Shown: one piece after another, positions 33,170 to 47,032 of the stretch
Numbering within the stretch: position 1 is the first letter of the stretch
How the letters are laid out: the number at the start of each line of letters is the position of its first letter
Source: Actinokineospora auranticolor
GTDB lineage: Bacteria; Actinomycetota; Actinomycetes; Mycobacteriales; Pseudonocardiaceae
DNA length: 64,000 nt
Reading direction: 5' to 3'
Assembly: GCF_002934265.1 (NCBI RefSeq)
Contig: NZ_PTIX01000025.1
Coordinates: forward strand, 1-64,000
Translations under genes and position numbers: made by a program
Notes under the pieces: generated by a model
Database searches by the model: none
What the model was told of the DNA's origin: nothing
The model's input: the letters and a program-made list of their open reading frames with translations, nothing else

Positions 33170-34450
33170 TCAGGACAGGCGGTCGAGGAAATGGGCGATC
33201 ACCGCCACGGATTGTTCCGGGTTGAGTCTTGGGTCGCAAGTGGAGCGGTAGTCCGGGAAGGATGGTTCGGCGTCTTGGGGTGAGACGCACTCGGTGACGG
33301 GGTCCGGGGTGAGTTCCAGGTGCAGGCCCGAGGGGCGCAGTCGCAGTCCACTGAGGACTTTCACGAACGTGGCGACCTCGGTCAGGATGTCCTCGACGAG
33401 GCGCGTTTTGGTACCCGCGATCTTGAGGCCGTTGCCGTGCATGGGGTCGCATAGCCATACGACGGGGGTGCCGTGCCTGGCAACGGCTTTGGCCACTCCG
33501 GGAAGCAGTCGGTCGACTTCGCCCGCGCCGTAGCGGGTGATGAGGCAGAGCTTGCCGGGTAGGCCTTCGGGGTTGAGCGCCCGGGTCAGCGCCACGACGT
33601 CGTCGGGGGTGGCGGTGGGGCCGATCTTGACTCCGATCGGGTTGCGCAGTCCGGCCGCCAGCGCCACGTGCGCGCCGGGCAGGGCGCGGGTTCGCTCGCC
33701 GATCCAGCCGAAGTGGGTTGAGGTGGTGAAGGGGCCTTGGGCGCCCGCGCGTACCAGTGGCCGTTCGTAGGGCAGGAGGAGGAGTTCGTGGGCTACGTGG
33801 ACGCGCTCCGCCGGGGGTTTGCCCCTTGACGCCCGGCGGACCTCGCGCAGGACGGCTTGGGCGCTGTCGTAGGCGGCGCGGAGGCGGCGCGGGTTCGGTA
33901 CGCGTTGGGGTGGTTCGGGTTCGGGGGCGTTGACCGCGTCGCCGCAGTAGGCGACCATGCGCAGGCCGGGGTCGGTCGGGGACGGTTCGTAGGGGGAGGA
34001 ACGCGGTTTGCCGTATTGGCCCGCGAGTCGGCCGACGGCCACGCTGGGCAGGCCGCTGGCGGCGCGCATCATGGCGGCCAAGCCCTGCAGGTAGTCCACC
34101 TTGCGGCGGACGAGGTCGGGTACGGCTTCGTGCAACCGCTCGGCGCAGTCGCCGCCTTGCAGCACCAGCGCGTCGCCGCGGGCGACCAGGGTCATGGCGC
34201 CGGCCAGGTCGTCGACTTCCGCTTCGGTGGTCAGGCCGGGTAGTTCGGCCAGTTCGGCTTCCACGTCGTCGACTTCGAACTGGTGCGGCCACGGCGGTTG
34301 CTGCGCGGCTGGGCGGGCGGAGACTGCGGTCAGCAAGGCCGTGACCGCGGTGTCCCGGCGTACTGGGAAGGCGGCGTCCGGCGGTTCGCAGCAGCAGAGA
34401 CTTTCGCGGACGGCCGCGCCGCCACGCGCGGGGCTGTCGTGGTGGATCAT
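33170..34450 (-). CDS. class II 3-deoxy-7-phosphoheptulonate (DAHP) synthase
   Basis: 426 residues from ATG 34450. It makes DAHP from phosphoenolpyruvate and erythrose 4-phosphate, the first step to chorismate. Class II landmarks are LVLQGGDCAERL, QYGKPRSSPYE, FTTSTHFGWIGERTRALPGAHV and a metal-binding set ending in VVWLCDPMHGN and GGLHLE-type SGLHLELTPDPVTEC. The length is slightly below the ~460 of primary-metabolism enzymes. It overlaps the exporter gene by 4 bases (ATGA) and ends the siderophore operon. An extra copy would raise precursor supply for dihydroxybenzoate under iron limitation; feedback behaviour cannot be judged from sequence. Confidence 0.92.
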   Translation of the reverse strand: MIHHDSPARGGAAVRESLCCCEPPDAAFPVRRDTAVTALLTAVSARPAAQQPPWPHQFEVDDVEAELAELPGLTTEAEVDDLAGAMTLVARGDALVLQGGDCAERLHEAVPDLVRRKVDYLQGLAAMMRAASGLPSVAVGRLAGQYGKPRSSPYEPSPTDPGLRMVAYCGDAVNAPEPEPPQRVPNPRRLRAAYDSAQAVLREVRRASRGKPPAERVHVAHELLLLPYERPLVRAGAQGPFTTSTHFGWIGERTRALPGAHVALAAGLRNPIGVKIGPTATPDDVVALTRALNPEGLPGKLCLITRYGAGEVDRLLPGVAKAVARHGTPVVWLCDPMHGNGLKIAGTKTRLVEDILTEVATFVKVLSGLRLRPSGLHLELTPDPVTECVSPQDAEPSFPDYRSTCDPRLNPEQSVAVIAHFLDRLS

Positions 34451-35865
34451 CGTTGTGCTCCTTCCGTGGCTTGGGCAGCAGGCGGGTTTTGTCGTGGCCG
34501 GGGTAGGCGGGTGGCGGCCAGGGCCGCGAGGACGGTCGCGGCGAGCACCCACCAGAAGGTGTCGGCGAACGCGGCGGCGGTGTCGGGGCCGCGGGCGGTG
34601 AAGCGGGTCTGCAGGACCAAGGCCAGGGCGGCGGTGCCGACGGAGCCGCCGAGGGTGTTGAGCAGGCTCAGTGCCCCCGCGGCACGCGGGATCTGGGCGG
34701 GGGCGACGGCGCGGTAGGCCATGGTCATGACCGGGGCGCCGATCATCGCCGCGCCCAGGCCGCGGAGCAGCAGGGAGGCGGCGATGGCGGCGTCGGGGAT
34801 GTCGTTGGCCAGTTGGGTGAACACGGCCGTGCCGAGGGCGACCAGGACGATGCCGCTCAGCACGAGCGTGCGGGGCGCGATGCGGTGCACGACCCGGCTG
34901 ACCCACAGCGAACCGACGGCGGCGCCGATGCCCTGGGGGGCGAGCAGGAGCCCGGTCTGCCACGCGGTTTGGCCGTCGGCGCGTTGCAGGTACAGGGGGA
35001 GCAGGAACATGGTGCCGAACACGGAGGCGCCCAGGACCAGCAGCGCCATCGCCGCGACGCCGAGCGGTGGGCGGGTGAACAGGCGCGGGTCGATCAGGGG
35101 GACGCCCTTGGTGCGGAGGCCGTGCACGACGAAGGCCGCGAGCATGCCCGCGCCCACGGCGATCGCGATGGGCGGGACCGGGCCGTGGCCCAGGCCGGTC
35201 AGACCGTAGACGAGGACGGCGAGTCCGGGTGAGAGGAGGGCGGCGCCGCGTAGGTCGAAGGGGGTGCGGTGGTCGGCGGGCGGGCCGGTGGGGACGCACC
35301 GGCGGACGAGGAGGAGGGCGACCGCGCCGATGGGGAGGTTGACGCAGAACAGCCAGGGCCAGGGGGCGACGGCGAGGATGGCGCCGCCCGCGAGTGGGCC
35401 GAGGACCGGGGACAGGAGGGGGATCACGGCGACGACGCTGATCACACGGCCGATGCGGTCCGGGCCCGCGGTTCGGGCGAGGAGGGCTTGGCCGAGGGGT
35501 GGTAGCAGTCCGCCCGCGGCACCCTGCAGGACGCGGAAGGCGATGAGGCTGGGGAGGGACCAGGCCAGTGCGCAGAGCAGGGAGGCGAGCAGGAAGACCG
35601 CGATGGCGGCGGTCCAGGCGCGCCTGCCGCCTGTGCGGTCGGCTAGCCAGCCGGAGGCTGGGACGGCGGCGACTACGGCGAGCAGGTAGGCGGTGCTGAC
35701 CCATTGGATGTCGGTGACGGAGACGGCGAACCGGTCGACCAGGACGTCCATGGCCACGGAGACGATGGTGGTGTCGAGTGTCGCCATGAAGGTGCCGAGC
35801 ACCAGGACGAACGCGGTCCGCCACAACGCCCGGTCGACGGTGGGGCGCGCCGCGTCGGTGCTCAT
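34447..35865 (-). CDS. MFS drug:H+ antiporter (DHA2), probable siderophore exporter
   Basis: 472 residues from ATG 35865 behind GGGAG. It has about 14 hydrophobic segments and the DHA2 landmarks LDTTIVSVAMDVL (motif D1), a GWLADRTGGRR loop (motif A) and RVLQGAAGGLLPPLGQALL (motif C region). It resembles EmrB/QacA-type exporters. Placed between the NRPS/linker ORF and DAHP synthase with overlapping stops and starts on both sides, it most likely exports the finished catecholate siderophore. Confidence 0.9.
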   Translation of the reverse strand: MSTDAARPTVDRALWRTAFVLVLGTFMATLDTTIVSVAMDVLVDRFAVSVTDIQWVSTAYLLAVVAAVPASGWLADRTGGRRAWTAAIAVFLLASLLCALAWSLPSLIAFRVLQGAAGGLLPPLGQALLARTAGPDRIGRVISVVAVIPLLSPVLGPLAGGAILAVAPWPWLFCVNLPIGAVALLLVRRCVPTGPPADHRTPFDLRGAALLSPGLAVLVYGLTGLGHGPVPPIAIAVGAGMLAAFVVHGLRTKGVPLIDPRLFTRPPLGVAAMALLVLGASVFGTMFLLPLYLQRADGQTAWQTGLLLAPQGIGAAVGSLWVSRVVHRIAPRTLVLSGIVLVALGTAVFTQLANDIPDAAIAASLLLRGLGAAMIGAPVMTMAYRAVAPAQIPRAAGALSLLNTLGGSVGTAALALVLQTRFTARGPDTAAAFADTFWWVLAATVLAALAATRLPRPRQNPPAAQATEGAQR

Positions 35866-36572
35866 GTGGACTCCCGTGGCAGGCGGTTGGTGAGCGGGGC
35901 GGGTCGCGCTGGTGGAGCGGGGCGGTGCGGGTTGGTGGTGAGGGGCCTGGGACGGGGCGCGCCAGCGCAACTCGCGGTGGCGCTCGTGTGGTCCCTGCCC
36001 GGCGAGCGGGCGATGTGCTTGTTGGACTGGGTGAGAGGGGCGGTGTGCCGGAGGTTGATGGCCGGGGCGGGACCCCTGGTCTGGAGACCAGGCCTACCGG
36101 TGCGGCTCGCGTGGTCTCCGCGCGGCAGGCGGTCGAAGTGCTTGTTGGGCTGGGTGGATTGGGCTCGTGGGGCGGTGTGCCGGAGGTTGTTGGCGGAGGT
36201 GGAAGGCCCGGCCTGGGACGCGCGAGGGGCGGCGTGCTGGGGGTTGATTGCGTTGGCGTCGGCGGGGTGCGGGGTCTGACCTGGAGTTGGAACACGCTGG
36301 TCCGATTCGCGGCGGGTGCTCGTGTGGTCTTCACCCTGCGGCTGCTCGATGTCTTTGTTGAGCTGGGTGGGCGACGGGTGTGGAGCTGTGCGCTGGAGGC
36401 CGGCTATGACGACGGGGCGGGGATACAGGCCTACGGCCGGAGCGGTGTGGCCCGCACCGGTGCTCGCGTTGTCGCGGGCCGGGTCAGGCTGGGCGCGCGG
36501 GAGACCGGTGGCGATGGGGTCTTCCTGGGGCAAGAGCACCCGCCCCGTGTCGGGGCTCATGTGGTCTCCCCC
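35859..36572 (-). repeat. degenerate tandem repeats derived from a ribosome-site/start segment
   Basis: On the plus strand the unit GCTCATGTGGTCTCCCC (near 36555) recurs as GCTCATGTGGACTCCCG (35860), GCTCGTGTGGTCCCTGC (~35982), GCTCGCGTGGTCTCCGC (~36105), GCTCGTGTGGTCTTCACC (~36319) and a poorer copy near 36462. Spacing is 93-214 bases, often ~122. A second motif, GGGCGGTGTGCCGGAGGTTG, lies at ~36030 and ~36172, with a diverged copy near 36225. Confidence 0.7.
35862..36560 (-). CDS. repeat-derived 232-residue ORF coupling NRPS to exporter
   Basis: The ORF starts at ATG 36560, inside the NRPS stop (ATGA), with GGGGGAG in front. Its own stop overlaps the exporter ATG in the same way. The protein is Pro/Arg/His/Thr-rich and hydrophilic, without a signal or helix, and is built of degenerate units: NLRHTAP, then NKHxxR, then a P-x-GDHxS motif. 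The units contain copies of the region around the exporter start (GGRRWCCACATGAGC with the ATG mutated). I know no homologous family. It may be a bona fide disordered protein, or a minisatellite kept open so ribosomes reach the exporter. Confidence 0.55.
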   Translation of the reverse strand: MSPDTGRVLLPQEDPIATGLPRAQPDPARDNASTGAGHTAPAVGLYPRPVVIAGLQRTAPHPSPTQLNKDIEQPQGEDHTSTRRESDQRVPTPGQTPHPADANAINPQHAAPRASQAGPSTSANNLRHTAPRAQSTQPNKHFDRLPRGDHASRTGRPGLQTRGPAPAINLRHTAPLTQSNKHIARSPGRDHTSATASCAGAPRPRPLTTNPHRPAPPARPAPLTNRLPREST

Positions 36573-39500
36573 AGCAGTCGGTCGGTGGGCTCGTCGAGGA
36601 GGGTGGGTAGGGCGCGCAGGGTGTGTTGGAGGTCGGTGGCGATGGCGTTGAGCTCGCCTGGGTCGAAGAGTCCGGCTTGGGGGGAGAGCACGGCCGTCCA
36701 GCCCGCGTCGGTGGGGACGACGGTGAGGGTGAGTGGGTGGTGGGTGCGTTCGCGGAAGCGGGTGTCGGTGACGGTTAGACCGGGGGCTGGTTCACGTAGG
36801 CGGGTTGGGTCTACCGGGTAGTTCTCGAAGACGAGGAGGGTGTCGAAGAGGCGCTCTCGGGCGGTGAGTGTGGTGAGTTCGGGTATCCCGATGTGCTGGT
36901 GTTCGACCATCGCCTGTTGGCGTGACTGGGCGTCGGCCAGTGCTTCCGCGACGGTTCCTTGGAGGTGGACGCGGACCGGGACGGTGTTGGCCAGCAAGCC
37001 GAGGATGTCCTCCACGCCCGCCACCTCGGGTGTGCGGCAGGCGACCATGGTGCCGAAGGTGACGTCGCGACGGCCTGAGCGGGTGGCGAGGATCGCTGCC
37101 CACGCTCCCTGGAGCATGGTGTTGGGGGTCAGTCCCCGGGCCGTGGCCGCGGTGGTGAGGGCGGCGACGGTGTGGGTGGGGACGGTGAACAGGACCGGGT
37201 CGGCGGCGGCGACGGTGGAGCGCCTGCCGTGCAGGAGGTGGTCGCCTTCGGGGAGGTCCAGGAGTTCGGTGCGCCAGGCGCGCAGGTCGGTGGTGTGGTC
37301 GTGGGCGGCCAGCCATCGGGTGTAGTGGGAGAAGGGGGTGGGGACGGGTAGGTCGGTTTCGGTGTAGTGGGCGAACAGTTCGGTGAGGATGCGCGGGGCT
37401 GACCAGCCGTCGGAGAGGAGGTGGTGGGTGGTCAGTACCAGGTCGTGGTGGTTGGGGCCTCGGTGGAGGACGGTGATTCGGAAGAGGGGGCCGGTGGCGA
37501 GGTTGAACGGTTCAGCCAGGAGTTCGGCCAGGACCCGGTCTCGTTCGATGTCGTCGACGTCGCGGGTGGTGAAGTCGGGCTCGGGCTGGGTGGGGATGAC
37601 TTGGACGGCGTGGCCGGGTGGGAACACCGCGCCCAGGTTGGGGTGGCGGGTAAGGAGGTGTGTGCCCGCCGCGCGGAGGGCAGGCAGGTTGAGGGGGCCG
37701 TTGAGGGTGAAGACGCCTTGGACGGTGTAGGGGTCGGTGCCTGTGCGTGCTTGGTCGAGCATGAGTTCTTGCAGCGGGGTCAGGGGGAGGATTTCGCCGT
37801 CGGGGGTGTCGGTGGTGAGCGCGTGGAGTTCGTGGGCGAAGCGCTCCCCCAGTTCGCCGATCCGGGCGGGGGTGAACAGGGCCGCGGGCCAGGTGAAGCG
37901 GACGCCCAGCTCGTTGTCGCGGAGGATGGCGTTCACCATGAGCGCGTGCGGTAGCGGTAGGTCAACGCCGCCGGAGCCGAGGGGGTCGGCGTCCGGCGGG
38001 GGCTGCCAGGCGGTTTCCTCGGTGGGCGCGGCGGGGAAGCGGCCGAGGTAGTTCCAGCTGACGTCGGGGTGGCGCACGAGGTCGTCGCCCAGGATGCCGT
38101 GGCCGAGGCCGTCGCCCGCGGCGCGCAGGTGTTCGCGAACGGCGCGCAGGGCGGGGGCGGTGCCCGCGGGCGGGTGGATGCGGGCCGGGTGCACGGCGGT
38201 GAACCAGCCGACGGTCTGCGACAGGTCGGCCGGACCGGAGAAGTCGGGCCGGTGAGCTGGGCGGCCGTGGCCCTCGAGGGCGACGAGCAGGTCGGGGGCG
38301 GTGCCGCGCCAGGCGGCGATCGCGCGGGCGAGGGCGGTGAGCAGGACGGTGTCGGGGGTGGTGCGGTAGGCGGCGGGGAGGGTGGTGACCGCGGCGCGGG
38401 TGGTGGCCGGGTCGATCCGGACGTGGTGGTGGCGGGCGGTTGCCGCGGTGTCGCGGGTCGAGTCGAGTGCGGGGAGCGGGCACACGGGGGTGGCGGCGAC
38501 GCGGTGCCAGTGGGCGCGTTCGCTTTGGCGGGCGGGGGCGGCTTCGCGCAGGGCTGTGGCCCAGCCGAGCAGGGATAGGCCGTGGCGGGGTAGGGGGGCG
38601 CCTGCGTGGGCTTGGGCTAGGTCGTCGATCAGGATTCGCCAGGACACGGCGTCGACGACGAGGTGGTGGGCGACGAGGATGAGCCTGCCGAGGCGGTTTG
38701 GTCCGGCGTCGATCCAGATCGCGCGCAGGAGTGGGCCGGTGCGGGGGTTCATCTCGGCGCGGGCGCGGGTGATGTGCGCACGGGCGAGTGCGCCGAGGTC
38801 GACGGCGGCGGAGAACAGGTCGGCAGTGCTCGCCTGCCCGGACTCGGGAGAGTGCGGTGGCTGATTCGCTGCGGCGCCGGCGATGTGCTCCCAAGCCGGA
38901 GCAGCAGAGGCATCGACAGGGGGCGCCGAGGTGGACGCATCCGCGCCAGTCGCCACACTCGCCTCAGGAGCGTCCACTACCGGTCCCGTGGACGGGTCGA
39001 CCGCTCCGTGGGCGATGTGCTCCTGAGCCGCAGCACTGGAGGCATCAGCGGGGGACGCCGTGGCGAACACGGTGGTGGCGGCGGGGGTGGTCTGTGCGTC
39101 CGGGGCGGATACCACGGTGAGGATGTCTGTGCTGGTAACGGCTCCCGCCGCGGGGATGCGTAGTACTAGGCCCGCCTTGGTGTCGGCCAAGTGGGCGCGT
39201 AGGGCGTCGTGGCGGGTTAGGAGGGCGTTTAGAGTTTGGTGCCATTCGGTGGTGGTGCTGGGGGGTACGCAGATTTGGACCCATTGGCAGAAGGTGTCCG
39301 CGGGGCCGCGTTGGAGTAGGGATCGCATTAGTGGGGTCAGGGGGGCGTCGCCTACTGCTGGGCTGTCTTGTGTGGACTCTGCGGTGTGGCAGCGGGCGGC
39401 TATTCCGGCGATTGTGCCGCCTTCGAATACGTCGCGGGCGGTGAGGGTCAGGCCTGCTCGGCGGGCTCTGGAGACTACTCGTAGGGAGACGATGCTGTCG

Positions 39501-42500
39501 CCGCCGATGTCCAGGAAGGAGTCGTCCAGGTGGACGTTGCCCAGTACTTCGCGGAAGACGGCCAGCAGCGCGGTTTCGGCGGGAGTGGCTGGTTCCCTGG
39601 ACTCGGTGGAGGTGCGTGGGGCCGGGTCGGGGAGGGCGTCGCGGTTGAGTTTGCCGGTGGGGCCCAGGGGTAGGTGGTCGACCAGGACGAAGGCTGTGGG
39701 GACCATGTGGTCGGGGAGGTCGGTGCTCAGGTGTTCGCGTAGTGATGCCGAGTCGGGGGCGGTGTCGTCGGTGGGCAGGATGTAGCCGACCAACCTGCCC
39801 TCGCGGACGATTACGGCGCACGCGCGGACATTGGGGTGTCTGCTGAGGACGGTCTCGATCTCGGACAGCTCGATGCGGAAGCCGCGTACCTTGACCTGGT
39901 GGTCGGTGCGGCCCAGGAACACCAGTTGGCCGTCGGGGCGCCAGCGGACGAGGTCGCCGGTGCGGTAGCAGCGGGAACCGGGCGGGCCGAAGGGGTCGGC
40001 GACGAAGCGTTCGGCGGTGAGGGTGGGGCGGTTGACGTAGCCTCGGGCCAGTTTGGGGCCGCCCAGGTACAGCTCGCCCGCGACGCCGACGCCAACCGGT
40101 TGCAGGCCCGCGTCGAGGACGTAGGCGCGGACCTGGGGGTCGGGGCGGCCGATCGGGAGGGGGCCCGGGTCGTCGGGGCGGTAGCGCCACGTGACGGAGT
40201 TGATGGTGACCTCGGTGGGGCCGTAGGCGTTGAACAGCGCGCGGCGGTTTCCCCAGCGGTGGGCCAGTTCGGGGTCCAAGCGCTCGGCGCCGATCATGAC
40301 GAGGACGTCGCGGTCGACCGGGGTGTCGTCGGGGATCGCGGCGACGAAGGACGGCAGCAGGTTCACCCCGGTGACCCGGTGCTCGACGATGTAGTCGAGC
40401 AGTTCGTCGCCGGGGACGCGGGCTTCCTCGGGGGCGATGACGGAGGTGCCGCCGGAGAGCAGGGGCAGCATGAACTGCCAGAAGGCCACGTCGAAGCTGG
40501 TCGAGGCGAAGTGCAGGTAGCGTTCGCGGGCGCGGATGCCGACGACGTCCTCTTGCAGGGTGACCAGGCTGGGCAGGCCGCGGTGCGGGATGGCGACGCC
40601 CTTGGGCTTGCCGGTGGTACCGGAGGTGTAGATGACGTAGGCGATGGAGTCGTCGGTGATGCGGCGCCGGGCGGCGACCGGGTCCGAGTCCCAAGTGGAC
40701 GTACCGGCGATGGTGGTGGGGTCGATGACCGGCGCGTCGACCGGGATTGCCCGCGAGTCGGGGGTGGCGATCACGGCGGCGGGAGCGATGTCCTCGACCA
40801 TGTACCGCAGTCGGTCGACGGGGTAGGTCGGGTCCATCGGGACGTGCACGGCACCGGCCTTGAACACGCCGAACAGGGCGACGACCATCTCGATGTCGCG
40901 GGTGAGCAGCACCGCGACGGGGTCCTGCGGGCGCACGCCCCCCGCGATCAGGGCGTGGGCGAGGCGGTTGGCGCGGCGGTCGAGTTCGGCGTAGGTGAGG
41001 GTGCGGTCGCGGCACACGACGGCCTCCGCGTCGGGGCTGCGGCGCACCCACCGGTCGAACTCCGCCAGGCAGCCCGCCACCGGCCTGCTCGGCTCGGGCC
41101 CCTCCCCCATGGCGAGCATCGCCCGGTGTTCGGCGGCGTCGAGGGCGCGCAGCCTGGCGACGGGTCGGTTCGGGTCGGTGACGATCTCCGCGAGGAGAGT
41201 GCGCAGCCAACGGCCGTAGCCGCGCACGGTGTCCTCGTCGAAGACGCCCGGCTGGTAGCCGAGGCCGACGACGATCTCGTCCCCCGGAATCACGATCACG
41301 GTCAGCGGGTAGTGCGTCGCGTCGGTGATGTCCACGCCCACCAGGTCCAGGCCGGGGGCGAGGGTGGTGCGGTTCCTGCTGGAGAGCGGGAAGTTCTCCA
41401 TCACCAGCATGGTGTCGAACAGCTCACCCAGCCCCGCCGCGCGCTGTACGTCGGGCAGCCCGACGTGGTGGTGCTCGACCAGGGCGGCGCTCTCGGCCTG
41501 CACCCGCGCGAGCACGGAGGTGGCGGTCTCGGCCGCCGCGGCGCGCACGCGCACCGCGATGGTGTTGCCGAGTTGGCCGATGACGCGTTCGACGCCGTCG
41601 AGTTCGGCGGGCCTGCCGGAGACCGGGCAACCGAACACCACGTCGTCGCGCCCGGTGAGCCTGCCGAGCAGCACGCCCCACGCGGTCTGGAACACGGTCG
41701 TGGTGGTCACGCCTTGCTCCCGGGCGAACGCGCGCAGCTGTCCGCTGAACTCCGCGCCCAGGTTGACGATCACGCGCTCCGGACGGGCCACTTCGGACAC
41801 CGCGGCGGGAGGCGCCAGTCGGGTGCCTGCCTCGAGGCCGGTCAAAGCGGTACGCCACGCCGCCAAGCCCGCGGTGTGGTCGCGACCGGCCAGCAGGCGG
41901 TGGTAGTCGGTCAGGGAAGGCCCGGTCGGGGCGGCGGGGCCGCCGCCGAGTTCGGCGTAGGTCGCCAGGAGGGTCCGGCCGACCAGTGGCATGGACCAGC
42001 CGTCGAGCAGGGCGTGGTGGTTGGTGATGACCAGGCGGTGCTCGTCGGGGCCGAGGGTGCACAGCAGGAAGCGCACCAGCGGCGGGGCGGCGGGGTCGAA
42101 GGGGCGTTCCAGGTCGGCGCGGCAGTGCTCGGCGAGGAGTCGGGCGCGCTCGTCCGGGGTGTGCCCGGTCAGGTCGACGCGCCGCCAGTCGAGGGTGACC
42201 TCGGCGGGGATGACCTGGACGACCTCCCCTCCGGTGGTGGTGTGCAGGTGGACGCGCAGCGCGGGGTGCCTGCGCAGCAGCTCGTGGGTGGCCGCGCGCA
42301 TCCGGTCGGGGTCGAGGGCGCCGCGCAGCAGGGTCAGTGCCTGCACGACGTAGACGTCGGTGTCCTGGTCGCCGCGGACCTGGGTGTGGAAGGCCAATCC
42401 GACCTGGAGGGGCGTGGCGGGCAGGACGTCGAGCACCCGGCCGTGCCGCTCGAGTTCGTCGATGGCGTCCTGGTCGAGAGCGACCAGCGGCAGGTCGGAC

Positions 42501-45500
42501 GGGGTGAGCCCGCCGCCGTGCTCGGCGTGCGCGGCGAGGGCGCCGAGCGCCCGCTCCCACGCGTGCCGCAGGTCGGCGAGCGCCTCCGGGGTGACGACGA
42601 GCCCGGCGGCGGTCCACTCGACGGCGATGCGCGGCCGGGTGCCCTCGCGGACGAAGCAGTTGAGGGCGAGTACCTGTTCCAGCGACTTGGTCGCGGGTTC
42701 GATGACGGCGAACGGGTCGTCGTCGGGCAGCCGCCACCCGCCGTCGGGCACCGGGGCGAAGCGGCCGAGGTAGTTGAGCAGCACGTCCGGCGGCGGGACC
42801 GCGGCGAACTCCGCGCGGGTCTCGGGATCGAGGTGGCGCAGCACGCCGTGGCCGATGCCGTGGTCGGGAACCGCGCGCTTGGCCTCCTTGACCGCGCGCA
42901 CCAACCGCCCGGCGGCCTGACCGCCGGCGAGCGCGTCGGCCAAGTCCTCGGACGAGCGCACGGCGTCGGCGGGGAGGCGCAAGGGGTGTTCGGCGGTGAA
43001 CCAGCCGACCGTGCGGGCGAGGTCGAGCCCGGAGTGGTCCCGACCGTGCCCCTCGACGGTGACGGTCACCGCGTCGCGTTCGTCGCCGCGCCACAGCCGC
43101 AGGGCGAGGACGAGCGCGGCGAGCAGCACCTCGTCGGAGCCCGCGCGGTAGGCGTTGGGCAGTCCACTGAGGACGGCCGCGCTCGCTTCCGGCGAGGCGA
43201 CGGTGGTGGTGCGGTACGCGGTGGCCGTGGTGTCGAGAGCCTGGTCCAGCGGACGGGTGCCGACGCGGAAGTCGTCGCGGGCGGCACGCCAGTGGTCGAT
43301 CTCCGCCCGGCGGGCACCGGTGGCGCCCTGCGCGGCGAGCCGGAGCGCGTGTCCGCGCCACGAGGTGCCTACGGGCGAGAGTTGTTCACCCGCGCAAGCG
43401 GCGCGCAAGTCCGCGAGCAGCACCCGCCACGACACGCCGTCGACGGAGAGGTGGTGGATCACGACCACGACCTCGTCCGGCGCGCCCGGCGGCGTGCGCA
43501 GCAGCGCCACCCGCACGACCTCGCCCGCGGCCGGGTCGAGTTCGGCGGCCAACGCGGCCGCCGAAGCTGCCGCGTCGTCCCCTTCGGACTCGACGACCTC
43601 GGGCCCCGAGAGCCCCGGCGGAGGCACGAGCAGTTCACCGGATGACGAGACCCGCAAGCGCAAGGCGTCGTGGTGGTCGACCAGCGCGCGGACGCCCCGG
43701 GCGAGGTCCGCGAGGGTCAGGAACTCGTTGACGCGCAACGCCGTCCACTGCGCATACCCCGCGATCGACGTGTGGTCGGGGTGCGGGTCGAGCAGCGCGC
43801 GCACGATGGGTGGCGCGGGCACCGGCCCGGTCGGCTCGTCGACCTCGACCACTCGCGCCTCGTCGAGGTCGCGCCCGGCGGCGGCCAGCGCGGCGAAGCT
43901 GCCGCGGCCGAGGAGGTCGCGGGGACGCAGGTCGACGCCGTGTGCGCGCAGCCTGCTGCTGACGCCGATCGCGGTGATGCTGTCGCCGCCGACAGCGAAG
44001 AAGTCGTCGTCCGGGCTGACCTGTTCCGCCCCGACGACTTCAGCGACGGCGGCGCACAGCAGCCGTTCCCGCTCCGTGCGCGGAGCACGTCCACCGCTCG
44101 CCGAGCGGGGAGCGGGCAGCGCCGTGCGATCGAGCTTTCCGTTGGTGGTCACGGGAAGCGCGTCCAGCACGACCACGGCCGTGGGCACCAGGTGATCGGG
44201 CACCCGCTCCGCCAATTCCGCGCGGACCCGGTCCGGGTCGAGCGTGGTCAGCGCGGCGGGGACGACGTAGCCCACGAGCCGGGGCGCACCGGTGTCGGTG
44301 CGCACGGCCGCCGCTGCGGCCCCCACCCCGGGGAGTGCGCCCAACGCGGCCTCGACCTCGCCGAGTTCGACCCGGTGGCCCCGAACCTTGACCTGCCCGT
44401 CGCGGCGGCCCAGGTACGCCAGACCCCGGCCCGGTACCCAGCGGGCCAGGTCGCCGGTGCGGTACATCCGGTCGCCGGGGGCGCCGAACGGGTCGGCGAG
44501 GAACCGCTCGGCGGTGGCGCCGGGCCGGTCGAGGTAGCCGCGCGCCAGGTGCGGGCCCGCCAGGTACAACTCCCCCGCACTGCCCGGCGGCACCACGCGC
44601 AGCGCGTTGTCCAGCAGGTAGACGCGGGTTCCGGGGACCGGGAACCCGATCACCGGGTCGCCGCCGTCGAGCCAGGCGCCCACACTGTCCACAGTGGCCT
44701 CTGTCGGCCCGTAGAGGTTGCGTGCGGCTATGCCGGACGCGGCCACCCGACGCCACAGCGCGGGCGGCGCGGCCTCCCCACCGAGGATGAGCAACACCGG
44801 TCGATGGGGGCCGTCGAGCAGTCCCGCGTCCACCAAGGGAGCGGCCATCGACGGCGTGGTGTCGACGACGTCGATGCCATCACGCGTCAGCGCGGAGACC
44901 AACGCGGTCGCGTCGCGTGCCGTGTCGGCGTCGTAGACGTGCAGTTCGTGCCCGCACAGCAACCACAGCAGCTGGTCGAGCGCGGAGTCGAAGGCGAACG
45001 AGTACGTGTGCGCTGCCCGCAGCCGCCGTCCCGCCGCCCGCGTGGCGCGGGTCACCGTGGTGGACCGGTGGTGGTGCACGAGCGAGGCCAGACCGCCGAC
45101 CCGCCCCAGCACGCCCTTGGGGGTGCCGGTGGAACCGGAGGTGAAGATGACATAGGCGAGGTGGTCGGGATGCCGAGGCGCCGACAGCTCCTCAGTGGAC
45201 AACGGAGCGCCCGACAACGCGGCCAGTTCGGCGCGAACCTCCGGCGCGTCGAGCACCAGGCGCGGCACCTCCGGCGGCACCACGTCGACGGTGGCCGCCG
45301 AGGCGAGCGCGAGCACCGCACCCGCCTCGGTGACCGTCGCGCGCAGCCGCGGCGCCGGGTGCTCGATGTCGAGCGGGAGGAACGCGGCGCCCGCCTCCAG
45401 CACCGCCAGCAAGGCGACGACGAGGTCAGCAGACCGGTCCAGCGGCAGCGCGACCACGTCGTCGGCACCGACACCGCGCGCCCGCAGCGCCCGCGCCAGC

Positions 45501-47032
45501 CTGCGCACCTCGACGACCAACTCCTCGACGCTCAGCCGCCGCGCCCCGCACACCAATACCGTCTGTCCACAGTGGTCGACGAGCAGATCGGCCAACAGAC
45601 CGGGCACATCGCGCGGCACCCCCGGCACGGCCTCGACTCGCCACGCGTCGAGCAGCGCCACCAAGTCCTCGGGCCCGACCAGCTCGACCCGCCCGACCAC
45701 GGGCGCGTCCGAGTCCGTCAGGCCCCGGATCAGCGCGCACAACGCGTCCAGCCTGCGGTCGACACCCGCCTGGTCGTGGGTGCGGGCGTCGACCTCGAAG
45801 CCCAGCAGCACCCCACCATCACCAGTGGGCAGCACGCTCAGCCCCATGTCCTCCGGCGGTCCGCCCGCGACGTTGCGCATGGTCCCGGTGGACCCGGCGA
45901 AATCGATCGCGAGGTCGAACGCCTTGAGGTTCACCCCGCGCCCGTGCAGCAACGCTCCCGCGCCGGGCACGGCCAGGTCGCGGGGCAGGTCCTCGCCGCG
46001 GTAGCGCTGGTGCGCGCGCATTTCCCGCATCGCCGTGGCCACCCGCGCGGTCAGCTCAGCCAGCCCGTCGCCGCCGAACACCTTGACCCGCAGGGGAAGC
46101 ACGTTGACCGCCATGGCCGGTGTGCGCAGCGCGGACCCGAACCGGCACATCAACGGCAGCGCGAACACCACGTCGTCACGGCCCAGCACCCGGTGCAGGA
46201 ACGCGGCGTAGCAGGCGATGAGCGCCTCACCCCACGTCGCGCCAACGCTCTCCGCGACCTCGCGCAGCCGGTTGAGGTCGGCGGTGGGCAACACGGTCCG
46301 AGCGGTGACCGTGCGCTCGGGAAGCCCGGTTCCCCCCGCGATGTCGTCGAGGTCGGGCAACGGGGTGAACCGCGCGCGCCAGTACGCCCGGTCCTGTGCG
46401 GCCCGCTCGCTCGCGAGGTAGGCGCGGTCGGCGGCCACTACGTCGGCGAACCGGCCGAACGGAGACGGCGCAGGCAGGCTCCCGCTCACCAGAGCTGTGT
46501 AGTGGGCCGCGGTGCGACGGGCCAGCATGGCCGCGGTGTAGCCGTCGAACACCAAGTGGTGGCCCAGCTGCGTGAACCACACCTCCCGGTCGGTCAGGCG
46601 CAGCACCGTGTGCGAGAACAGCGGGCGTTCCACCATCTCCCGGCACGCCTCGGCCACCCGGCGGCGCTCCGAGTCGACCAGCGCGTGCGCGGCGGCCACC
46701 GGGTCCGGCGCGCCGCGCAGGTCGACCACCTCCGGCAGCGGCACCGGCTCGGCGGAGATCTCCTGGCGCGGTCCGTCCGGGGTGGTGAACACCCGCAACC
46801 GCAGGCTGTCCGCCTCCTCGGTGGTCGCGCGGATCGCCGCGCGCAGCGCCTCGACGTCCACCGGGCCACCGCCGCCGATCTCCAGCACGTCACCGACGAC
46901 GTAGTACGGCGAGTCCGGCTCCAGGCGCTGCGCGTCCCAGATGCCGCGCTGGGCGCGGGTCAGTTCCCAGGACGTCTCGGGTGAGCAGGCCGACTCGGAC
47001 CGGGTGCCGGGGTGGGCGTGGGCTGTGCTCAA
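36557..47032 (-). CDS. non-ribosomal peptide synthetase, C-A-T-E-C-A-T-E-C
   Basis: 3,491 residues from TTG 47032 (AGGAGA seven bases before). C1 ~15-455 has HHLVFDG near 157, suited to take the aryl acid. A1 ~470-970 has [11 protein letters not shown]1 has GGDSI near 1013. E1 has HHLSVDG near 1190 and NYLGRF. C2 has HHALLDGW near 1670; A2 has [10 protein letters not shown] near 2133; T2 has GGDSI near 2509. E2 has [11 protein letters not shown] near 2785 and an Ala/Ser-rich insertion at ~2640-2744. The terminal C3 has HHLLSDGW near 3202. No thioesterase. My alignment to PheA gives pocket codes near D-S-D-D-I-G-L-V-D-K (basic residue likely) and D-V-W-N-V-I-A-I-N-K (Ser/Thr-like, weak). It probably makes a dihydroxybenzoyl-D-aa-D-aa unit. 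Confidence 0.93.
38881..39078 (-). repeat. in-frame 132-bp duplication inside the second E domain
   Basis: CGATGTGCTCC at 38881 recurs at 39013. About 65 bases after each start are clearly related, so the period is 132 bases or 44 codons. The duplication encodes an Ala/Ser/Thr/Pro-rich stretch with EHIA in each copy. It sits in the loop between the start of E2 and its HHLVVDA motif. Confidence 0.65.

Follow-up and report, generated by a model that had tools for sequence, protein, structure and literature searches.

In the soil actinomycete Actinokineospora auranticolor, a 232-codon open reading frame (ORF) lies between an NRPS gene and an exporter gene. Comparison of its sequence with its neighbours and with related loci indicates that it very probably arose by reiterated duplication of the junction in which it lies. 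We also think it fairly probable that the ORF as a whole is a bridge born at this junction, its frame having been kept for translational coupling. The stretch of DNA analysed is 64,000 nucleotides long (hereafter the window), and the genes concerned follow each other on its minus strand in the order NRPS, 232-codon ORF (here called the bridge ORF), DHA2-family MFS exporter and class-II DAHP synthase. The features of the locus are as follows.

36557-47032, minus strand: NRPS, the upstream gene, 3491 aa from the listed TTG start
35862-36560, minus strand: bridge ORF of 232 codons, very probably repeat-born, with its ATG at 36558-36560 and its TGA at 35862-35864
34447-35865, minus strand: DHA2-family MFS exporter of 472 aa, the downstream gene, matching Pfam MFS_1 and, above the cut-off, NCBIfam TIGR00711
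36557-36560, minus strand: ATGA overlap of the NRPS stop (TGA at 36557-36559) with the bridge-ORF start, GGGGGAG just 5' of it
35862-35865, minus strand: ATGA overlap of the bridge-ORF stop with the exporter start (ATG at 35863-35865), CGGGAG just 5' of it

The NRPS contains five condensation, two adenylation and two carrier stretches, and a condensation domain is C-terminal. Upstream of it are genes for an isochorismatase, an AMP-ligase, a chorismate-binding protein, a short-chain dehydrogenase, a siderophore-interacting protein and a periplasmic binding protein. Because of these gene families, the cluster of NRPS and exporter looks like a catechol-type siderophore cluster. An earlier note on this DNA had described the frame as flush with both the NRPS stop and the exporter ATG, in each case as ATGA, and the coordinates bear this out. 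Translational coupling by termination-reinitiation at ATGA overlaps is the subject of PMC6728339 and PMC10666635. Like such coupled pairs, both junctions of the bridge ORF are 4-nt ATGA overlaps of stop and start, with a G-rich ribosome site just 5' of each. In contrast to those pairs, the two genes are here separated by an additional ORF that itself consists of junction sequence, and coupling is predicted from the arrangement.

The ancestral state of the junction was sought in relatives. A search with the exporter yielded 55 named loci, in which the NRPS tail was looked for within 400 nt upstream; the closest named relatives of the locus are Actinokineospora species. The tail was found in 38 loci, and in 36 of these it overlapped directly with a start-like codon running into the exporter (23 ATGA, 12 GTGA and 1 CTGA). 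The two exceptions are A. enzanensis, treated below, and Saccharopolyspora elongata (L045), whose overlap is slightly different. Sixteen of the other 17 loci were without such an NRPS tail and one was without an exporter match. Among the 16 is L053, for which another comparison gave a tail ending in ATGA 72 nt 5' of the estimated exporter start; a broken exporter match is the probable reason why this locus escaped. Outside the genus, direct overlap was seen in all 24 family loci fetched (19 GTGA and 5 ATGA), which come from 75 family genomes with an exporter match and are partly of the same species as the named loci. Five genus loci were also available: three had the direct overlap (species shared with three named loci), one was that of A. 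enzanensis, and the fifth (L014) lay too near a contig end for the overlap test. Relatives without an insert thus have a single junction, probably the ancestral state. The earlier note had proposed aligning this region in relatives, and the overlap free of any insert that is found nearly everywhere points to duplication as the origin of the ORF.

In A. enzanensis, 95 nt separate the two starts and form a 32-codon ORF that is flush as GTGA at both ends. This ORF ends PVLLDDDVDRLPKEST, and the NRPS of the same species ends PALLDEDVDRLLGEFT. No shuffle out of 1000 matched the NRPS tail as well as this in-frame copy at the amino acid level, and at the DNA level the copy scored 44 against a shuffle maximum of 35 (n=500). 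The ORF begins VSTD, as the exporter does; the match of its exporter part was not significant (310 of 1000 and 33 of 500 shuffles were as good). In the DNA tree, the window species and A. enzanensis are sisters (98/98), and the protein tree left this grouping without support. Because the A. enzanensis insert copies the NRPS tail, and because of the sisterhood in the DNA tree, the two species probably share one duplication, which then expanded in the lineage of the window species.

Traces of the start region recur inside the bridge ORF. The motif GACCAC[A/G][T/C]GAGC, with at most one mismatch, is present once at each outer junction and, between them, in four in-frame copies that lie 93, 237, 450 and 573 nt downstream of the ATG. 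The ATG is replaced in these inner copies by GCG, ACG, GCG and ACG, respectively. The final site, at 695 nt, is the exporter's own start and lies in a different frame.

36462-36473, minus strand: inner start-site remnant with GCG for ATG, the weakest copy, with one mismatch
36318-36329, minus strand: inner start-site remnant with ACG for ATG, from the motif search
36105-36116, minus strand: inner start-site remnant with GCG for ATG, from the motif search
35982-35993, minus strand: inner start-site remnant with ACG for ATG, from the motif search

Over the whole window, the motif with at most two mismatches showed no excess over chance (50 found, 52.5 expected). The longer repeats of the bridge ORF are real, its best self-match scoring 34.8, where the highest score among 200 dinucleotide shuffles was 19.6. 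Eight repeat offsets exceeded the 95% level of the shuffles; those of 123, 132, 213, 336, 189, 57 and 255 nt are multiples of 3 and that of 23 nt is not. Among the best 25 offsets, 18 are multiples of 3 and 7 are not. Since several offsets are sums of others, only about four independent duplications, themselves partly dependent, stand behind these counts. Tandem Repeats Finder, which the earlier note had suggested running here, reported a sole array with a 23-nt unit (35888-35946) but none of the other copies, presumably because these are degenerate and unevenly spaced.

The ORF had been read before as degenerate repeats of the segment that holds the ribosome site and start codon. The inner GCG and ACG copies agree with this, but the repeated unit is larger and takes in about the last 27 NRPS codons as well. 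The copies recognised in this way are listed below, with alignment scores and the maxima of the shuffles.

36457-36520 (ORF nt 40-104), minus strand: degenerate copy of the NRPS tail, matched by the A. enzanensis NRPS end with 49 against a maximum of 35 (300 shuffles)
36308-36414 (ORF nt 146-253), minus strand: degenerate copy of NRPS tail plus junction, matched by the single junctions of A. diospyrosa (56 against 48) and A. globicatena (54 against 46; 300 shuffles)
36104-36195 (ORF nt 365-457), minus strand: degenerate copy of NRPS tail plus junction, matched by the window NRPS end over 92 columns with 76 against a maximum of 51 (300 shuffles)
35975-36033, minus strand: another copy of the junction, sharing 81% identity with the one at a distance of 123 nt

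The A. terrae junction also aligns to ORF nt 146-253, at the edge (score 58, 1 of 300 shuffles as good). When the exporter start with 40 nt upstream was compared with the inner bridge ORF, the match was not significant for the window (28 of 300 shuffles as good) and was marginal for A. enzanensis, where this is the second junction (5 of 300 as good). An amino-acid match of the NRPS tail to the core of the bridge ORF was discarded as not significant (142 of 1000 as good). The frame of the inner copies was worked out by hand from the alignment blocks. Their tail parts lie in the NRPS reading frame, which the A. terrae alignment leaves in one block. Two copies have an alignment that continues across the junction; in both, a single additional base immediately 5' of the junction motif shifts the reading to the exporter frame, which lets it run on past the former stop. 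Together with the relatives, these copies of the NRPS tail strongly support the tandem duplication at the intercistronic junction that the earlier note had put forward as the origin.

The following course of events would account for the ORF. In the ancestor, the siderophore NRPS and exporter genes would have overlapped as ATGA or GTGA, and a tandem duplication would have spanned this overlap together with the ribosome site and the NRPS tail before it. An ATGA overlap sets the downstream frame back by one base relative to the upstream one, and a duplication of length 2 mod 3 would align the frame of the first start with the upstream frame of the second copy. The new frame would read former coding frames until the second stop, and an ORF coupled at both ends would appear in one step, of which the 95-nt insert of A. 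enzanensis may be an example. In the window lineage, the unit would have been reiterated and have decayed to the 695-nt insert, inner ATGA becoming ACGA or GCGA, while one-base shifts near the junction copies would have joined the pieces into the 232-codon frame; the order of these events is a reconstruction. The frame would have been retained because ribosomes finishing the NRPS must pass to the exporter and because the C-rich message would have to stay covered by ribosomes.

The openness of the frame is no evidence of coding and was set aside as such: it was open in 1302 of 5000 dinucleotide shuffles (26%), and one reverse-strand frame across the bridge ORF is likewise open. The dN/dS check recommended earlier for the frame came out against a conserved protein. 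Among the repeats, pN is 0.25 and pS is 0.26 (six partly overlapping comparisons), so that the ratio is not well below 1 as for a functional protein, and this absence of constraint on the amino acids speaks against the product having a conserved function as a protein. In the aligned flanking genes of the window and A. enzanensis, the exporter has a dN/dS of 0.18 and the NRPS tail one of 0.23. The proposal that coupling kept the frame open found nothing in the openness itself, but is indirectly favoured by the offsets, which are mostly multiples of 3, by the insert lengths (95 and 695 nt), each of which is 2 mod 3, and by the lack of amino-acid constraint. We infer that the frame was retained and the sequence was not, a pattern that fits a translational bridge between coupled genes. 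On these grounds the bridge ORF may carry ribosomes from the siderophore NRPS gene to the exporter gene, and we lean towards selection for translation of its frame in that role.

What such a bridge could spare the operon is suggested by the behaviour of spacers elsewhere. In the native gene pairs tested in PMC10666635, most or all reinitiation was lost once a spacer of about 20 nt, or of 38 nt in E. coli, lay between the genes. Work cited in it found that coupling falls slowly over spacers of 150-850 nt, and work cited in PMC12548453 found coupling without loss up to a spacer of 25 nt. A passage of PMC12548453 also describes Rho loading onto untranslated mRNA, and polarity. A translated insert would avoid both the loss of reinitiation over a spacer and the loading of Rho.

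Other readings of the insert were weighed against these data. By neutral decay, the junction would have been duplicated, the exporter would now use its own ribosome site for initiation, and the 695-nt insert would be drifting DNA, its frame open by composition only. The open shuffles and reverse-strand frame and the equality of pN and pS suit this reading, as does the ribosome site just before the exporter ATG, because of which the exporter may not need coupling. We nevertheless hold it to be rather unlikely, as the repeat offsets cluster on multiples of 3, both inserts came out as 2 mod 3 in a scan that did not filter for frame, the inner copies have their tail parts in the reading frame of the NRPS, and ATGA is intact at both ends. 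The insert could also be a regulatory device, which would be compatible with a bridge: as a leader or attenuator, a translated C-rich and G-poor stretch would shield a region of Rho loading, and expression of the exporter and of the genes beyond it would then depend on good translation of the NRPS. This is unlikely in our estimate. The peak of C over G in the insert (78-nt windows) is at the 99.98th percentile of NRPS plus exporter, in line with what the part of PMC12548453 mentioned above says of Rho and polarity. The mean over the whole insert, however, is only at the 91st percentile of blocks, the NRPS tail itself is already C-rich, and the insert is only 95 nt long in A. enzanensis and absent from the other relatives.

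A functional small protein, that is, a repeat-built product rich in Pro, His and Thr that aids the exporter or the NRPS, might be suspected from the position between the two genes and from the coding-like GC content by codon position (0.71, 0.64 and 0.82). Against it, besides the equality of pN and pS, stand the A. enzanensis counterpart, which has 32 codons and a different sequence, and a single-sequence fold of low confidence (pLDDT 51, pTM 0.14) to which no secondary structure was assigned. The bridge-ORF protein had no match in Pfam or NCBIfam, none in 15 other genomes of the genus at E 0.1 and none in 60 other genomes at E 0.001. It is thus a candidate orphan, with no homologue found outside its lineage in these searches, in agreement with the statement that no described family resembles it. 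We consider this particular role very improbable and a protein function of any kind very unlikely; the peptide is probably a disordered by-product. It is more improbable still, to the point of being hardly credible, that a dispersed mobile repeat landed in the junction. The insert is repeat-rich and specific to the lineage, but a DNA search of the own genome gave only one short match below E 0.001 besides the insert itself, where a dispersed repeat would have many copies, and the copies within the insert match the NRPS tail itself.

Similar ORFs were also sought elsewhere. We scanned for ORFs flush at both ends between long frames, required a length of 2 mod 3, and scored the identity of the two junctions (80 nt). 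In the own genome (G000, the window and 80 further stretches), 4 of 374 candidates reached at least 0.55, namely the window case (0.625), two in L110 (0.625 and 0.588) and one in L113 (0.562). None of 83 candidates in G007 and none of 103 in G063 reached 0.55, and the 130 candidates of the 55 named loci gave one match, that of A. enzanensis (0.613). The L113 candidate (identity 0.56) was dropped, since it is a low-complexity tandem array that aligns just as well in a shifted register. The L110 cases lie in one operon.

L110:11350-12442 (G000:C1), minus strand: two junction-copied mini-ORFs of 27 and 35 codons, with inserts of 80 and 104 nt

The 27-codon ORF is located between an HpcH/HpaI-like lyase gene and an acetaldehyde-dehydrogenase-like gene, and the 35-codon ORF separates this second gene from a 4-hydroxy-2-oxovalerate-aldolase-like one; we presume these names from reading the sequences. 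Each mini-ORF ends in an in-frame copy of the tail of the gene upstream, which no shuffle out of 1000 equalled in either case; at the DNA level, 2 of 500 and 0 of 500 shuffles were as good. Their match to the start of the gene downstream was not significant (177 and 75 of 1000 shuffles as good). Six relatives in the genus have a close aldolase (87-90% identity), and in all of them the genes meet at both junctions in a direct ATGA overlap; three further genomes, whose aldolases are only about 40% identical, were left out of this comparison. In one of the six (L138, genome G002), the aldolase start carries an in-frame tandem repeat of its first codons, giving MTGVAHDAVAHDAVARDVVV, and the exporter start of Streptomyces sp. 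SirexAA-E has a similar repeat. We interpret these repeats to mean that a protein is lengthened when the copied piece stays in frame, whereas a new ORF results when its length is 2 mod 3.

Junction duplications were also scanned for without regard to phase, with 43, 4, 7 and 12 matches in the four sets. Among the matches listed, the window (695), A. enzanensis (95) and one L110 case (104) are all 2 mod 3; the scan is no clean test of length mod 3, because it is swamped by repeats that we read as lying inside genes. The two smaller cases in the same genome suggest that junction copying can recur. We see an even chance that operons repeatedly gain new genes by the tandem duplication of stop/start overlaps. 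On this reading, a length of 2 mod 3 would at once give an open, doubly coupled ORF, which could grow by in-frame reiteration because its translation and not its sequence would matter; the window ORF would then be a large and advanced case, that of A. enzanensis an early one, and L110 would hold two more events.

Leader peptides and attenuators are ORFs ahead of a gene that control it by their translation. Like them, the bridge ORF lies ahead of a gene that its translation could control; unlike leader peptides, it is long, lies inside an operon, and is known here without regulatory codons or a structure switch. Chimeric genes at the breakpoints of tandem duplications are known mainly from eukaryotes. 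Parts of neighbouring genes are joined into a new frame in those genes and in the bridge ORF alike, but what was duplicated here is a stop/start overlap within an operon, which makes the new ORF flush at either end from the outset; it was then reiterated, and mostly the upstream gene tail is recognisable. In enterobacteria, about 13% of co-directed intergenic small ORFs stop within 10 nt of the next start, according to a section of PMC11188072. The bridge ORF is young and lineage-specific like the de novo microproteins treated in that section, but its source is coding DNA of the neighbour and not intergenic DNA, and with 232 codons it exceeds their 15-70.

Among co-directed prokaryotic neighbours, short stop/start overlaps are by far the commonest spacing, as an excerpt of PMC10666635 has it. 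If the copying of an overlap gives a coupled frame about one third of the time, operons have a built-in source both of new ORFs and of raw protein that is mostly disordered. Among the open-licence PMC papers listed in our searches, judged by title and abstract opening, we recognised none on duplication of stop/start overlaps as a source of ORFs. The parts are known (coupling, chimeric ORFs from duplications and orphan ORFs), and their combination at stop/start overlaps with growth in frame was likewise not recognised among the papers so listed. The series of no insert, 95 nt and 695 nt, with 80 and 104 nt elsewhere, would allow a direct test of whether translation of a frame is selectable apart from its content. 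For annotation, some 'hypothetical proteins' that lie flush in operons may be copies of a neighbour's tail.

Several smaller observations were made on the way. A few exporters of the relatives carry longer N-termini between the overlap and the conserved part, and that of Streptomyces sp. SirexAA-E (L050) has in-frame repeats, MSADAPGGPTSGDVPGGPGSADAPGG, with the first Met replaced in the inner copies. The only other own-genome match to the insert is a stretch of 48 bases (L002, C20:65299-65346), 88% identical to the 3' part of the bridge ORF (E 2.9e-6), which may reflect shared composition. In the same genome, L113:12384-12696 is a GC-rich tandem array with units of 10-40 nt. Along the NRPS (36557-47032, minus strand), third-position composition drifts from 5' to 3', C3 rising from about 0.46 to 0.7 and G3 falling from about 0.47 to 0.2. 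The NRPS also contains an in-frame insertion of about 99 low-complexity residues (38797-39151, minus strand), shortly 5' of HHxxxDxxSW, a condensation-domain motif. This insertion is absent from the same NRPS of A. enzanensis, A. diospyrosa, A. globicatena and A. terrae. It holds a pair of 58-nt repeats, 78% identical and 132 nt apart (a multiple of 3), and looks like the same kind of degenerate in-frame expansion as the bridge ORF.
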